This document shows, piece after piece, positions 22,691 to 28,662 of a stretch of 40,450 nt of DNA. The first letter of the stretch is position 1. Every line of letters starts with the position of its first letter. The stretch covers positions 1 to 40,450 of the forward strand of contig BCKE01000002.1 in assembly GCA_001600495.1 (NCBI GenBank). Direction: 5' to 3'. A model generated the notes under the pieces. That model worked only from the letters and a program-made list of their open reading frames with translations. It had not been told where the DNA came from and did not search any database. The position numbers were made by a program, and so were the translations under genes. The stretch comes from Pilasporangium apinafurcum. Its lineage: Eukaryota; Oomycota; Peronosporomycetes; Pythiales; Pythiaceae.

Positions 22691-24667
22691 TCACACGATC
22701 CCTTGGTAACCTGCACGTCGACGGTTGGCTCCAAACCACAGAACTGTCGTCCCGCCAAGAATTGCACCAACGACACCACCAATAACGATCTGAACAATGG
22801 CAATACCCGTCCAACCCTGCTCTTCAGGCTGCTGTTGCTGCTGGCTCGTCACAATACTCACACTCGCGTTCTGTTGGTCCTCAAATGCTTTGATGTCTTT
22901 CTTAACGGGACCTTTCGCAATCAACGTATCTCCTGGCCATCTCGAGAAATCGCTCAATTCCAACCACCACGCTGGGTACCCAGGCATGAGCATCTCCTCT
23001 GGTTTTTCGCCGGTCGTAATATACCCATCTGTGAACTTACCCACTAGGTACCACGCAAACTCCCACCATTGTGTTACCACGTCTGAGGCAAACGCATTCT
23101 GGTGATCTTGCATGTATAAATCAATTTTTGTCACATTTGTCCAGTGGCGCACGTGGTCTTCAAGCTTTTCACGCAACGCAAACGCCATCGGCTGCAAGTC
23201 AGCGATCTTAGCGCGCACATCGACACTGATGGCGTTAAACCGCAGCAAACTCCAGTTGTGGACGAAATTGAACGCCCACCAGGCTGATTGCATCGTGAAC
23301 TTGCTTTCTTTGCCAAGCAAATACGAGTCAGGTACACGATCCTGACGGCACGAGAACGGTACGTACACAGAGGAGTATGGAGTGCCCTGTGCGTACCACA
23401 TCACACCACCAACGCTATCATGCAAATGACCGCGTGCCTGCATGACGAAGCTGTAGACGGTGCGATACATGGAGATAGATCGTTCCCAGCCTCCGAGAAT
23501 ACCTTTATTGCTGCCGCCATACCGCACAGGCGACCCGAATGGTCCTGCAGCAATGCCTTTTGTCATATCATACGGTGTGTCTTGATAGTAGTCACGTAAA
23601 ATATTCATCACACGATCCACAGCCACCAGCTCATCCGGTTTAACGGAGAAAGGATAGGTCGGGTATTGTGTAAAAAGGCCCAAGCGGGAATCCAAGCGCA
23701 TTGACGGCGCCAATAGGTCGAAAATGCGCCATATGCGTCTTCCGGTATATAGTGGTCTGATGGGGTTGATATCATGAAATCCATAGGCAGCCGTGAAGTC
23801 GATTGGACCCTGTGTGGCTTCATCCCACCAGCCCATCTCTTCGGCGAAGGAGACCACATTTGATGAAGCCATGAACGTATCGGTGTCATTGAGATCCATG
23901 ACGCGGATCATGAAACCATTTGTGACGGCCGCAACGTGATCGTCGGGAACTCGCTGAGCGGCCCAGACTGCACTAGCATTGTTCTTCCCTGTCAGTACGT
24001 GGAATACCCAGGCCTCACCGTATCGATCGGCAATACCTAGCGCCTCAGCGGCGTTCACATAATCTGGCGCGTTGGGATCGCCGCTGTCTTCACTATAAAA
24101 CCCGTACTCCACTGCGAGATCGCCCATGGTTTGCACGGCACAGCGCGCGGAGTCACAGCGTTCAAGCGCCACCTTGGAGAGTTCGGCGATGCCAAACAGG
24201 TTGTAGCCGTAGTCGACGTCTTTCGCCCAGCCAACAGTCTTGGCACCGCATGTGCTCTCGCCGATACTCAATTGCATCTCGTTCATAAGCCCATAGTCTT
24301 GGTCCCAGTATGCATACGTATTCCGCACCTGCGGAATATATCCAAGTGGTGTCATGATCGTCTCGTTCTCGTACTTGGGTGCATAGTGAGGTCCGCGCTC
24401 GGTGGCCACCAGTCGTGGATAGCCGCCAAAGAAGCTATACACGGCACGTTGAGCACCCGGTTTGTGAACCTGTGCAGGAACACGCACTAATCGGAGATCG
24501 GCAGCACCACCACCGGCATCGTCCGTGTGAGCGATGAGCGTCGAGCCATCTACTGTGGCGTTTCGTCCTACTGCGATCATCGTGCATGCTTCCGTGTATT
24601 CAATGATGGATCTAGCTCCAAATAGCAGCAGCAACAACCATGAGGCTGGTGAATTGAGGAACTTCAT
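22691..24667 (-). CDS. Secreted/membrane C69-family (dipeptidase-type) peptidase
   Basis: 658 residues, single exon, start at ATG 24667. A signal peptide (WLLLLLFGARSIIEYTEA) ends directly before CTMIAVGRNATVDGS. In C69/U34 N-terminal-nucleophile peptidases the first Cys after maturation is the catalytic residue, and here that Cys sits exactly at the predicted cleavage point (residue 28). Downstream family text includes AHTDDAGGGAADLRLVRVPA, GLMNEMQLSIGESTC and RYGEAWVFHVLTGK. The catalytic domain runs to about residue 600. A Gln run (SQQQQQPEE) leads to a C-terminal TM helix (IVQIVIGGVVGAILGG) and a short basic tail, so the enzyme is probably a type I membrane protein of the secretory or lysosomal route. 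It may cleave dipeptides or amides; the substrate is unknown. Confidence 0.88.
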   Translation of the reverse strand: MKFLNSPASWLLLLLFGARSIIEYTEACTMIAVGRNATVDGSTLIAHTDDAGGGAADLRLVRVPAQVHKPGAQRAVYSFFGGYPRLVATERGPHYAPKYENETIMTPLGYIPQVRNTYAYWDQDYGLMNEMQLSIGESTCGAKTVGWAKDVDYGYNLFGIAELSKVALERCDSARCAVQTMGDLAVEYGFYSEDSGDPNAPDYVNAAEALGIADRYGEAWVFHVLTGKNNASAVWAAQRVPDDHVAAVTNGFMIRVMDLNDTDTFMASSNVVSFAEEMGWWDEATQGPIDFTAAYGFHDINPIRPLYTGRRIWRIFDLLAPSMRLDSRLGLFTQYPTYPFSVKPDELVAVDRVMNILRDYYQDTPYDMTKGIAAGPFGSPVRYGGSNKGILGGWERSISMYRTVYSFVMQARGHLHDSVGGVMWYAQGTPYSSVYVPFSCRQDRVPDSYLLGKESKFTMQSAWWAFNFVHNWSLLRFNAISVDVRAKIADLQPMAFALREKLEDHVRHWTNVTKIDLYMQDHQNAFASDVVTQWWEFAWYLVGKFTDGYITTGEKPEEMLMPGYPAWWLELSDFSRWPGDTLIAKGPVKKDIKAFEDQQNASVSIVTSQQQQQPEEQGWTGIAIVQIVIGGVVGAILGGTTVLWFGANRRRAGYQGIV

Positions 24668-25559
24668 CTCTTTGCTTGCTTGGGTTTCCAGCTTTTGTCG
24701 TTATGTGTCCTAAGTTTCGTGCTCAATTGTGCCCGTTAAGTTTTGGGATATGTATGTGCATGAAAGAAACGGTGTGATGAACAAATAGAAAGATTGTAGT
24801 TGTATCTTTTTTTCTTTTCAATAAAAGTAGTATTAATTGGTGGACGACACAGCAATGCATGTTGCATTTCAGAACGTAGAGCCAATTGATTGGTGGAAAC
24901 GACAGAAAAAGAAGCGATTCGAATGTTGAGTATTCTGGAGTTCAATAGCAAACTACGTGATTAGTGTAGATGGGAGCGATAGATATCTTTATTGCAGGCA
25001 CTGTCTCTACGTTTTTTTTGTTCCTTCGATCCGCGACACAATGTACGCTAGTTTCTAGAGTGGCATTCGTCTGGCTATACACTACTCTGCACCATGCTCC
25101 ACCAGACATTATCCAGCGTTTAACCTTTTTTTCCCCAGTGTACTATATGAAGTACATCTTCTTTTACTTGCTTATTTACCATATCTCACTCAAATCTACA
25201 AGATCTGACAAGTCTAAGATGGATATACACATGGCGATCTGCAATTCTTTGTCAATCAAAGATCACCACGAGACATCGTATATGTATATGAATGTTACTG
25301 TTAGTATACACCCTGAGTGCAATTAGTCGCTACTCGACTCGGATAATCCCCCTCCGTTAGATTCTAGTTCCAGTGCCCACATTTACATTTCTATAAAGAC
25401 TATACACGAATACTCAGTACCTCAATCGACAACATCGCTCAAGTGCTGATGACGTATCGTACTACACCGCTCCTGTCCTTTACAACATCGTCTTCAGTAT
25501 CATCGTCATCTCCAGCATCATTACATGAAGGCAGTGGATTACCTAGAGCATGCTGTGTG
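24668..25559. repeat. Gene-poor region with a decayed dispersed-repeat fragment
   Basis: No intact gene. Between about 25165 and 25265 the plus strand matches, with many substitutions, the reverse complement of 16790-16900 inside the TTA-flanked element. Shared pieces include CATATCTCAC and the coding-like text HIS.KS on one side and IHM..NSLSIK on the other. Around 25125-25150, CCCCAGTGTACTA resembles CCCCAGGTGTACTA at 6917-6930. I read these as old copies of one or two dispersed repeat families, not as genes. Confidence 0.45.
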
Positions 25560-26165
25560 GACTTTATCTAAACCTCATAATGCAGGTTTAAAAGCCAGAG
25601 TCAGACTAGGCATCTCTGACATCTGGACTCGATGAGTCCAGGAAAGTAGATGTTCATTCTTGAGAAAGATGCTTCTAGCAGCGTTGACATCTCTGTCAGT
25701 GAGAACACTCCAAGACTTTCTGATATCAAACATCTTGTGGAGAAGTTGCTTCTGTTCCTTTGTTGGATACAATCTCACTTTCAAGATGCTGTTTGGACTT
25801 GGTTTATCTATCTTGCATCATTTGATCCTTTCCAAGTCTCGGAGATCAGAGTCTTCTGAGCATTCCTGCCTTCCTTCCATTTCTTCTCACAACAAAGACG
25901 ATAACATGAGACGAGAGGTATTCTCTTGCTTTCATGTCTTGATAAAGTTGTTGGTCACTGTGATCCACGTTTTGGATGCTATGCTCTTTGCATATTTGTG
26001 CGAGGAGTCCGTACTCAAATCGGTCTTAGACGGTAACCACAATCCTCGAGATCTGCTTTTTACGTGCCATTTCTACCAGTCTGGGCAGTCCTGACTTGCT
26101 GTCCTTGATACCGGAACCAATGTCGATCTCCTCGGGCATGTACTGTCATCGCCTTTCGTTCTTTC
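25560..26165 (-). mobile_element. IS607-like element remnant: TnpA serine recombinase plus TnpB fragments
   Basis: Two element genes can be read in order on the minus strand. First, a TnpA-like serine recombinase fragment begins at ATG 26139: MPEEIDIGSGIKDSKSGLP, then LVEMARKKQISRIVVTV, a TAA, and DRFEYGLLAQICKEHSIQNV. This corresponds to the middle of the IS607 resolvase domain; the N-terminal catalytic Ser region is absent. Second, a TnpB fragment reads KIDKPSPNSILKVRLYPTKE and then EQKQLLHKMFDIRKSW, the typical TnpB/Fanzor N-terminus. It jumps directly to LTDRDVNAARSIFLKNEHLL, the RuvC-III end. RuvC-I, RuvC-II and the zinc finger are therefore deleted, leaving both ends of tnpB, as in non-autonomous derivatives. 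Stops and frameshifts show it is inactive. Confidence 0.7.
25623..25641 (-). other. Perfect hairpin near the TnpB 3' end
   Basis: CTGGACTC-GAT-GAGTCCAG: an 8-bp perfect stem with a 3-nt loop, just downstream (in gene orientation) of the TnpB RuvC-III codons. In TnpB elements the 3' end of tnpB and the adjoining right end encode the guide-RNA scaffold. This stem could be a relic of it or a transposon-end structure; function is not shown. Confidence 0.4.
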
Positions 26166-27205
26166 TTGAAAAGAAGGATGGTGGATAAAAGATCTCATCG
26201 TGAAGAATTGAAAACAAGTTTCTATCCCACCGGTGGGAGAAATGGGGGAATAAAGGTTAAAAACGACGTGACCAACGTCGTGCACACAGCATTTCAGCAC
26301 TTAATGGGTATCTGGACGTCGTACAGTACCTAGTGAAGCACAAAGGAGAAGAGCGTTCCTAGACCAAATCCCGCCCATGCCAGTCATCCGGAAAAACCTT
26401 TGATGGATAATAGGTTCTAGGCAAGCTGCTTTGCCCTGCTACTAGTACTTCGTTCTTTATTTGCGAGTTGTGTGGCCTCAGATTGATCCCAGTATGTCGA
26501 ATTGAAAACACACATCAGAAGGTATGATCACAGCTGTTTCCTTTGATTTTATCATTATCAAAAATACGATGATTCACATGTCACTTCATCAGGGAGAATA
26601 TCAGCATCTTCACGTCGCAAACCTACCACAAACGACAAATTGAGCGATCCTAGCGACTCATGACTGCATCTACGGGGATCGAAAAATAGGTTGTATGTGC
26701 TGAAAAAGCGATGGCAGACCGAGATAGAATATCTCTAGTAGCGCCTCTCCTCCTACCTGACTACACCCTTTTGAGATCCAAGCACTCAAGCAAAGAGGTG
26801 GAAAGCGAGATGAGAAGGAGGAAGACTGGGCTGTGTATCGGCATTTCACTTAAGTACGAAGCGTTTTCCCTAGTATATCAGTCCCTAATAATCCCTCGTG
26901 AAGTTAAAATTAGGTACATATTCTGTGGTTGCAGGCGATAGGATAAATGAGAGCGAGTGGATGGGCAAAAGCTTGCCAAAATCGGATCATAAATAAGGCT
27001 AAGGCTTTCGGTATTGTAGAGGCTGGAATAGTTGATTTGCACAGATATGTTATATCATGTATGGCTTGATCACAGTCAAAATGCTGGTCGGGCTCCATGT
27101 ATTCAACGCACATTACTCCTAACTGGTTTCAGTTTCGAACCCAATAACTTGAATTAAAAAATAAATACCTACTTGTTAATAAATTTAAAAACATCTAAAA
27201 TCACT
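26166..27205. other. Gene-poor region downstream of the HSF-type gene
   Basis: I see no gene. The left end probably still belongs to the IS607-like remnant, but its limit cannot be placed. The short ORFs at 26711-26941 and 26910-27113 show no family features. The stretch before 27205 is AT-rich, as expected for the HSF gene 3' region. Confidence 0.35.
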
Positions 27206-28111
27206 TTACGCTAGCCATTGAGGCCGCACGTTCACATCACATGGAGCCAACGCGCTGGCGCACGTCAGCTCACGGATGGACGGAAGCTTGAAGCCGCTCG
27301 TAACCTTCCGTGTGGGGGAAATGACAGGGATATTGAACAGCGAGCTACTGCTGGTAGTAGTAGCAGCTCTGACAAAAAGATCCAACGCTGGCGCTTCCAA
27401 CATTTGAGGCATTGGAGACTGACTTGGGCTTTCCATAGTCACACCAACCTGAGCTTCCACTGGTGTCACTACAGGAGCAGGAGAGCTTACGCGCTCTGGA
27501 GAAGCTTCTGGCTTTGGCAAAATTGGTTTACACTTTTCACTGGCGATCCAGTATCCTTGAAGAGTTGGTCGCTTCAACTCTTGCTCATCGCTGCTCGAAG
27601 TTGCCGCTCGCTTTCTGGACTTTTTGCTTTGACGCTTGACCAAAGACATCTCATTGTAGTTATCACGAGTAAAGTGTTCACGGCTGTAAGTGGGGAATTG
27701 AGACCGTGCCTTGCTCCATTTACGGAAGCCAAAGTAGTTGAGTTGGCGTTGGAAGCTCGCAAAGTTCTTGTTCTTGAAGTATCGTGGTAGAACCTGGTTC
27801 GTCAACGCTTCTTTGTCCAGGATCTCGAATGCTATTCCGTCGGCTGACCAGCGGATGATCTTGGGGTTCTCTCGACGAAGCATCTGATGCAGATGCAGCA
27901 AGAACGGCGCTACCCAGCCACGCTTCAATGGGTCGGCATCACTATCGCTGCTGCTTGTGGTGCTTTCTGTAGAGGAAAGCGCAGGCGATGGCGGGCACAC
28001 AATAGTGGACGCTGGTTCGGCTGTGTTGTTTTGGCTCAAAATGTCTTGAACGTTCATCGATGAAGAAGTTGATGTAGATGATTCGTAGCCTGGAAATTTG
28101 GGAATGGGCAT
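27206..28111 (-). CDS. HSF-type DNA-binding transcription factor
   Basis: 301 residues, single exon, start at ATG 28111. A Ser/Thr-rich N-terminus of about 65 residues precedes the heat-shock-factor DNA-binding domain (about 68-165): APFLLHLHQMLRRENPKIIR, then IRWSADGIAFEILDKEALTN, then the recognition-helix region FKNKNFASFQRQLNYFGFRK. Most HSFs have SFVRQLNMYGF there, so the QRQLNYFGF text marks a diverged subtype. The basic KRQSKKSRKRAA after the domain is a likely nuclear localisation signal. No clear HR-A/B coiled coil for trimerisation follows; the C-terminal 130 residues are Pro/Ser-rich. DNA binding is secure, a role in heat response is not. Confidence 0.88.
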   Translation of the reverse strand: MPIPKFPGYESSTSTSSSMNVQDILSQNNTAEPASTIVCPPSPALSSTESTTSSSDSDADPLKRGWVAPFLLHLHQMLRRENPKIIRWSADGIAFEILDKEALTNQVLPRYFKNKNFASFQRQLNYFGFRKWSKARSQFPTYSREHFTRDNYNEMSLVKRQSKKSRKRAATSSSDEQELKRPTLQGYWIASEKCKPILPKPEASPERVSSPAPVVTPVEAQVGVTMESPSQSPMPQMLEAPALDLFVRAATTTSSSSLFNIPVISPTRKVTSGFKLPSIRELTCASALAPCDVNVRPQWLA

Positions 28112-28662
28112 CTGGCTTCGTTATTTCCTGTCGTTTGTGATCTCTTGGCGTGTTGTTCCGCCTCCGAAGGATTGCTGTAGGAGTGAGCAGGAGGAAAAGA
28201 ACAACTGAAGGTTGGCCGACAGCAGACGAGATTCAATTTCGCACACAAAGGAAAAAGAAAAACTATGGAGATTCACTATGCTGACCATGCTCATCCTTTT
28301 TCCACGCACTGACGTTTCTCACCACCGAGATTCATGTTGTGCTGTTAATATCGTAAAATGAATAATAAACCCATTTCATGAATCTGACGCACATCTAAGG
28401 GATGGGGCTACAGATTCAGCCAATCAAGACAAAGATGCGGTGATTCCCCGCCCATAAAAAAAGAACCTTTCAACCTGTGAAAATTTATACTTTAAAACTT
28501 TATATTTTGAATCTTCCTGTGCCGAATCTTGGGTGGTAGATTTGGAACCAATCATCGGCTTCTGGAGGAAAGTTGGATGGATCTATAATTATTGCGTTGA
28601 TTGTGATACCCAAGTTGAAGTGTAAAAAAAGCAGGAAGAGTCGTAGAAGAGTAGTGAGCAAG
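28112..28662. promoter_or_regulatory. Divergent upstream region of the HSF-type and four-TM genes
   Basis: About 550 bp between the HSF start (minus) and the four-TM start (plus). It must hold both promoters. One TTCATGAA (28375-28382) matches a two-unit heat-shock-element-like palindrome, too little to claim regulation. No other gene is visible. Confidence 0.35.

Follow-up and report, generated by a model that had tools for sequence, protein, structure and literature searches.

The window analyzed here, a 40,450-nucleotide stretch of contig BCKE01000002.1 of the oomycete Pilasporangium apinafurcum, carries a decayed transposon with remnants of the serine recombinase TnpA and of TnpB, the gene pair of IS607-type elements. 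We conclude, at a probability of about 0.7, that the locus is a dead, nonautonomous and composite member of a family of oomycete elements that goes back to an IS607-type transposon (TnpA plus a Fanzor2-type TnpB), and that this family spread in trans after TnpA had failed. A sequence-only reading of the same DNA had proposed an IS607-type TnpA-TnpB origin, a eukaryotic host and decay, all of which were supported by profile matches, by dispersed copies and by the oomycete relatives of a flanking peptidase. Its term "fossil" fits the window copy, which is decayed and dead, with a truncated TnpA interrupted by a stop and an internally deleted TnpB, but it undersells a locus that is one member of an amplified nonautonomous family and whose right end, as judged from sequence matches, comes from another element.

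The minus-strand frame 26145-26029 reads QYMPEEIDIGSGIKDSKSGLPRLVEMARKKQISRIVVTV up to a stop and then continues in the same frame as DRFEYGLLAQICKEH... to 25846. Its first piece (26145-26029) matched the NCBIfam IS607 transposase profile NF033518 (E 1.7e-4, 21 bits against a cut-off of 110 bits, a low score being expected from a scrap of 39 amino acids [aa]) and weakly the Pfam Resolvase profile (E 0.093); the second piece, from the stop to 25846, matched no IS607 or resolvase profile by itself. The TnpA remnant has one internal stop, lacks 5 codons and carries a shortened DRLxRFG motif. On the same strand, the TnpB frame 25817-25575 matched HTH_OrfB_IS605 (PF12323) above the cut-off and also carries DRDVNAARSIF. 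Both profile matches therefore bear out the claim that pieces of TnpA and TnpB lie on the minus strand with TnpA upstream; the span of 25560 to 26165 assigned to them was too narrow, since comparison of copies gives approximately 25120-26260. Missing from the window copy are the N-terminal half of TnpA, including the catalytic-serine region, and the middle of TnpB; compared with the full-length copies C62 and C55 (blastn), a deletion of ~1 kb has joined the C-terminal end of TnpB to its N-terminal segment. The TnpB stretch with the Fanzor2 fingerprint, namely DPG and a displaced Glu, is absent as well.

An amplified family with one left end and two right ends

When DNA from 25300 to 26400 was searched against the genome (an assembly of 36.5 Mb in 136 contigs), matches were found at at least 39 other places (40 scored including the window, of 673 candidates), with 79-91% identity in the main stretch. 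Because of these further places, and because full-length relatives hold the missing parts, the window match is more than chance. In the alignment of copies the left end (LE) is sharp at 26260, and its 21-mer, with up to 3 mismatches allowed, matched the genome 233 times, versus 2 for the reversed pattern. At the same tolerance, right end 1 (RE1), which reads ...GTCGGACCCAAACAATAACGGTTAA, had 61 matches and right end 2 (RE2), which reads ...GTATTCTGGTAATCGCCAGTA, had 164, versus 0 for either pattern when reversed. The family comprises about two hundred copies, dispersed over many contigs.

The full-length relatives C62 (2494 bp) and C55 (2454 bp) each contain LE, TnpA, TnpB and RE1. The sub-family of the window, in contrast, lacks the N-terminal half of TnpA as well as the middle of TnpB, and its right end is RE2. 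End pairing was done with 100 listed LEs of the 233, all 61 RE1 and 100 listed RE2 of the 164, and a listed right end was found for 56 of the LEs (22 RE1 and 34 RE2). Among the RE1 pairs, 15 measured 500-511 bp, three 1.2-1.3 kb, three 1.7-1.8 kb and one 2493 bp, the six intermediate ones spanning 1199-1767 bp; the 34 RE2 pairs measured 1085-1742 bp. These discrete size classes are consistent with internal deletion. RE1 copies carry imperfect 12-bp terminal inverted repeats (TIRs) of TTAACC[T/G]TTATT, and none was seen in RE2 copies. Taken together, this is an amplified, layered, nonautonomous family with a fixed left end and two main right ends. It resembles the deletion derivatives of DNA transposons known as miniature inverted-repeat transposable elements (MITEs) in its fixed ends, its internal deletions, the tight class of 15 copies at 500-511 bp and the excess of short copies over full-length ones; it differs from them in its IS607/Fanzor2 parent and in the two alternative right ends that go with one left end.

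Three linked pairs of copies (L017/L018 on C1, L061/L063 on C22, and L010/L011 on C9) lie 12-32 kb apart and are 98.4-99.9% identical inside, with different 5' flanks and different extreme left ends. In L017/L018 both mismatches fall within the first 7 bases and the 3' flanks read N; in the other two pairs the first bases differ and there are some internal differences as well. These pairs look like gene conversion rather than new insertion. Copies L045, L047 and L065 stand beside or inside oppositely oriented copies, and L065 shows two left ends, one with 4 mismatches, back to back within about 40 bp.

Probable loss of TnpA and past selection on a Fanzor2-type TnpB

At the DRLxRFG region, which we take to hold active-site arginines of serine recombinases, a gap at DRLLRFG was found in 41 of the 42 aligned loci, of three residues in 39 and of four in L005 and L034. 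The remaining locus, L074, is aligned out of register. Altogether 66 loci were examined, and the 24 that scored under 90 were not counted; L002, L040, L041, L058 and L069 (overlapping or repeated) and L006, L018 and L026 (near-identical separate copies) were left out. Of 31 open reading frames from viral contigs and bacteria, 30 retain DRLxRFG, and so do the intact relatives P0241 and P0242 (55% and 52% identical), which come from other sequence sources; P0242 carries YCRVSS and DRLLRFG. The sequence-only reading had proposed a genome search for intact relatives. The genome yielded the full-length elements C62 and C55 but no full-length stop-free TnpA among 150 scored matches to P0242 (of 265 candidates). 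Full-length TnpA relatives are broken by stops, with P0242 aligning over 2-223 in C55 and 1-220 in C62. TnpA matches lie directly upstream of TnpB in C62, C55, L005, L008 (partial) and L034.

According to a passage in PMC4058570, the N-terminal domain of IS607 TnpA is a MerR-type helix-turn-helix; the same source, in its available text, mentions active-site arginines without naming DRLxRFG. Many divergent TnpA copies among L025-L038 are interrupted at almost one and the same position in the linker between helix-turn-helix and catalytic domain, by a stop that may have been inherited or may mark a hotspot of CpG decay.

The full-length copies reveal what kind of TnpB accompanied this TnpA. The C62 protein carries AIDPGV, CEEHYTTKTC and DRDVNAARN, the first two of which correspond to the Fanzor fingerprint of DPG in RuvC-I and a Glu just upstream of the zinc finger (excerpt of PMC10711439), in its Fanzor2 form, and an IS607 TnpA match lies upstream. 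Its best relative of solved structure is the mimivirus TnpB-like protein L79 (PDB 9b0l; E 8.6e-25), a viral protein whose strong alignment is restricted to query residues 161-382. In a quick, midpoint-rooted tree of chosen rows with some long branches (38 of 120 listed TnpB proteins, with 19 loci chosen from 52 on viral contigs and 16 from 80 in bacteria), C62 TnpB falls into a 17-row clade supported by a Shimodaira-Hasegawa-like approximate likelihood ratio (SH-aLRT) of 98. This clade holds four named oomycete proteins (Phytophthora and Globisporangium) and 12 unnamed ones; the 16 rows from bacteria and the 19 from viral contigs lie outside it. Its position suggests that entry was old. The proposed transfer of a prokaryote-type element thus stands in a deep sense, but nothing here shows viruses or bacteria as the carrier.

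A genome search with PF07282 gave 852 candidates, and all 150 that were scored exceeded the curated cut-off. Several of these matches have open frames of 500-800 aa, some of them maybe inflated by runs of N. One quoted frame is of 8140 aa, and at L055, a further locus of this kind, there is an extended stretch of N, by which frames are opened artificially.

To compare the fates of the two genes, observed ratios of nonsynonymous to synonymous changes (N/S) were divided by neutral N/S, the neutral expectation keeping base, CpG context and spectrum (500 simulations; reference C62). On the longer branches, TnpB has been under purifying selection while TnpA has been neutral: the values were 1.12 for TnpA and 0.51 for TnpB in L005 (TnpB, 0 of 500 simulations as low), 1.47 and 0.71 in L008 (TnpB, P 0.032), and 1.21 and 0.55 in L034 (TnpB, 0 of 500). 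An earlier run on TnpB with another aligner agreed for L005 (0 of 500) and L008 (P 0.012). TnpB of L007 and L046 gave 0.49 and 0.41 (each 0 of 500), with no usable TnpA match in either, and L033 gave 0.66 for TnpB (181 sites, P 0.27) and 0.90 for TnpA. Closer copies showed no significant constraint on either gene; in C55, for example, TnpB stood at 0.97 and TnpA at 1.10. In 10 of 11 further comparisons of TnpA with C55, P was >0.05. Across 23 copies of the window family, no selection was detected on the truncated TnpA, in private or shared changes. Nonsynonymous, synonymous and stop changes numbered 61/25/5 (private) versus 63.9/23.6/3.5 expected, and 62/33/4 (shared) versus 64.4/30.6/4.0 expected. 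We did not read a first pooled pN/pS of 0.54 for this fragment as selection, since the observed counts are what the mutation spectrum by itself would give. Left out before these tests were L018 (near-identical to L017), L065 (TnpA stretch interrupted) and L069 (the window again).

None of the copies seen could have provided a transposase for itself, so spread in trans is probable, and after the failure of TnpA an outside transposase would have acted on the family ends. Fanzor2 would still have been selected, presumably for RNA-guided cutting that aids retention or copying of the element; cutting of empty sites would favor copying from an occupied site, a possible reason why Fanzor2 outlived TnpA.

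The composite right end and the enzyme that moved the family

The window copy tracks its own family to 25156. Copies L010-L018 and L020 align to 25156-25162 and then continue beyond, so that the terminal RE2 part has been lost in the window copy. From 25167 down to 25120, 48 bp match three other places, two of which, when compared, share nothing further with the window copy. These matches identify the right end, by sequence, as the inverted left end of another family, represented by L221 and L222. The 12 bases that fit both sources suggest a junction at short homology, and a deletion most likely fused the window copy to a neighboring, oppositely oriented Fanzor1-type element, removing both right ends.

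The L221/L222 family is about 1.88 kb long, with the LE TTAACCTTTTTTCCCCAAGTGTACT (10 further places read). Its protein carries DPG, E..TSKLC with the displaced Glu, a Cys4 zinc finger and DRD; it matched PF07282 (E 5.9e-8 for L222 and, below the cut-off, 4.1e-5 for L221), and its best match of solved structure, a weak one, is the Spizellomyces Fanzor (E 0.0054). By these motifs and matches we regard the family as probably Fanzor1-type. The 17-bp inverted repeats of L221 read TTAACCTTTATTCCCCA (other end, inverted) and TTAACCTTTTTTCCCCA, and the LE of the IS607 family, TTAACCTTTATTCCCCCA, is the same as the Fanzor1-type repeat except for one C, in register. RE1, when inverted, begins TTAACCGTTATT. 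RE2 does not fit the repeat, and RE2 copies end in CAGTA. The enzyme that also moved the Fanzor1-type family would be a serious candidate, given the shared left end; a simple TIR element, however, is hard to reconcile with the RE2 class.

At the LE junction, T was present in 33 of 35 copies and A in 29 of 35; at the RE2 junction, all 20 copies had T, and A was present in 16 of the 17 that could be read (in the junction table, the rows of L012 and L068 are one base out of register). The outer bases varied: the first base at LE was T in 27, A in 7 and G in 1, and the base following RE2 was A in 12, G in 3 and T in 2 of 17. These junctions cannot name the enzyme, because IS607 exchange at TA and mariner-type duplication of TA leave the same trace. 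Short RE1 copies are flanked by TTAA at 14 of 15 left ends and 7 of 12 located right ends, a biased sample in that the selection patterns contain most of TTAA; three right ends (L223, L225 and L232), mislocated by the pattern, were left out. RE2 copies do not fit the TTAA pattern.

Two accounts of the mobilization have to be weighed. In one, which we hold only tentatively, the IS607/Fanzor2 unit came to lie between the ends of a TIR transposon inserting at TA or TTAA (Tc1/mariner-like or piggyBac-like), the same enzyme moving the Fanzor1-type family. The in-register match of TTAACCTTTATTCCCCCA to the L221 repeats, the start of inverted RE1 and the TTAA flanks of short RE1 copies point this way, and in Pythium ultimum, Fanzor1 elements that have Mariner TIRs and duplicate TA have been published (PMC3627910, excerpt). 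It is opposed by the commoner RE2 class, which ends in CAGTA without such an inverted repeat, and by a genome search for piggyBac-type transposases (DDE_Tnp_1_7) with just three matches, none with a pair of inverted TTAACC repeats within 1.5 kb; mariner transposases were not searched for. A piggyBac mobilizer is, on these matches, weakly possible. The other account, possible but likewise short of persuasive, is classical IS607 amplification in trans, in which an intact TnpA, since lost or absent from the assembly, mobilized LE-RE substrates through exchange at a common TA dinucleotide. TA at both junctions with varying outer bases speaks for it, as do the intact TnpA relatives in other sequence sources and the exchange of IS607 at identical dinucleotides (a passage in PMC6188088). 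However, a mariner TA duplication gives the same junction, the 150 scored genome matches included no intact TnpA, and LE is shared with the Fanzor1-type family. Doubtful is the proposal that a transposase switch has been caught part-way here, in which an IS607/Fanzor2 element without its former serine transposase came, by acquisition or convergence, to bear the ends of a Fanzor1-carrying TIR transposon and kept multiplying by means of the enzyme of that transposon, with Fanzor2 under selection. Among the three piggyBac-type matches, C5:658288-659460 (L072), possibly a domesticated gene, stands out by its E of 2.1e-41 and an open frame of 546 aa; the two weaker matches contain a stop.

Readings that dispense with an amplified family fare far worse. 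An isolated degenerate insertion would account for the dead window copy, but it is very improbable and was rejected in view of the dispersed matches, the many LE copies and the discrete size classes. The TnpA-TnpB order is that of prokaryotic IS607 and might suggest bacterial or viral contamination or a recent transfer; this was rejected as hardly credible, since host genes, among them a peptidase C69 with oomycete relatives, flank the element on a 1.15-Mb contig, copies occur on many contigs and TnpB belongs to the oomycete clade. Any transfer from bacteria or viruses would appear to be old. Several results weigh against a family spread in trans under selection for Fanzor2. The four-residue gap of L005 and L034, instead of three, suggests that the TnpA lesion may not be a single event. 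In L004, TnpB gave 0.83 (P 0.28) and TnpA 0.70 (P 0.17); with the other aligner, TnpB of L001, L003, L004, L044 and C55 showed no significant constraint (P 0.12-0.58); TnpA of L037, one of the 11 further comparisons, had P 0.02; and the selection tests are not independent, as they share branches and one reference. The flank search matched only the copies' own flanks and gave no empty site for six copies. The mobilizing enzyme was not identified in the genome by searches for IS607 TnpA and piggyBac-type transposases. Covariation indicative of a guide RNA at the right end was unsupported in an alignment of 17 sequences (covariation term 0.19; a change on both sides in 3 of the 24 pairs predicted), and an Rfam search of the window gave no match, although the C62 right end by itself outdid most of its shuffled versions in folding (z -2.2), 7 of 200 doing equally well.

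The family we describe shares with known IS607-type Fanzor2 elements the order of TnpA followed by TnpB/Fanzor2 on one strand, and the DPG with displaced Glu (excerpts of Bao and Jurka 2013, PMC3627910, and of the pro-Fanzor model, PMC10711439). In the available text of PMC3627910, Fanzor2 is listed for Phytophthora sojae, P. capsici and P. ramorum, Fanzor2 elements are described as being without TIRs and target-site duplications, and the TnpA-bearing examples named in the relevant section are not oomycetes. The present family, in contrast, has an LE matching Fanzor1-type TIRs, a TnpA lesion in nearly all aligned loci, and paired copies most of which fall below full length. PUl-4 of Pythium ultimum, a Fanzor1 in a TIR transposon (PMC3627910), is alike in having a Fanzor between TIR-element ends and TA at the junctions; here, however, the nuclease is Fanzor2-type and still accompanied by an IS607 TnpA remnant. 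In the open-access literature, which leaves subscription papers mostly outside, we found no paper on nonautonomous IS607/Fanzor2 families in oomycetes and no report of IS607/Fanzor2 ends shared with Fanzor1 elements. The wider question is by which route RNA-guided nucleases of bacterial IS607 became eukaryotic Fanzors on unrelated transposons. A switch caught part-way, if true, would be the intermediate between IS607-borne Fanzor2 and Fanzor1 in eukaryotic transposons that the model of PMC10711439 needs. One genome holds both Fanzor kinds, matching ends, a failed transposase and a nuclease gene that selection preserved for longer. In oomycetes, of which many genomes are sequenced, the order of events and the selective reason for keeping a Fanzor become directly testable.

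Features of the window and the flanking genes

Table 1. Coordinates of the composite element, its parts and the adjacent genes in the window
Feature	Position	Strand	Basis or remark
Whole composite element	25120..26260	-	Left end at 26260, inverted Fanzor1-type left end at 25120; 14 copies and L070/L071 compared
Left end (LE) TTAACCTTTATTCCCCCATTTCTCCCACCGGTGGGATA	26223..26260	-	Common to RE1 and RE2 classes; first 21 bases served as genome search pattern
Truncated TnpA, C-terminal part of serine-recombinase domain	25846..26139	-	NF033518 and alignment to copies
TnpB N-terminal helix-turn-helix segment	25728..25817	-	PF12323, E 9.1e-7
TnpB C-terminal end (DRDVNAARSIF)	25604..25706	-	blastn to C62 and C55
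Right-side segment, common to RE2 sub-family, not in C62/C55	25168..25603	-	Alignment of copies; family similarity extends to 25156, a 12-base overlap with the Fanzor1-type part
48 bp of Fanzor1-type family left end, inverted (by sequence match)	25120..25167	+	93%, 91% and 87% matches at C10, C10 and C1
Flanking host gene, peptidase C69 (open frame)	22691..24700	-	PF03577, E 1.3e-50
Flanking host gene, heat-shock-factor DNA-binding protein (open frame)	27206..28120	-	PF00447, E 3.1e-22

The named relatives listed for the peptidase C69 are mostly from oomycetes, the best being a Nothophytophthora protein with 67% identity over 96% of the query. A Phytophthora cactorum protein, P0208, is annotated with both peptidase C69 and heat-shock-factor domains, which suggests that the two genes are old neighbors with the element between them (22691-28120 in the window).
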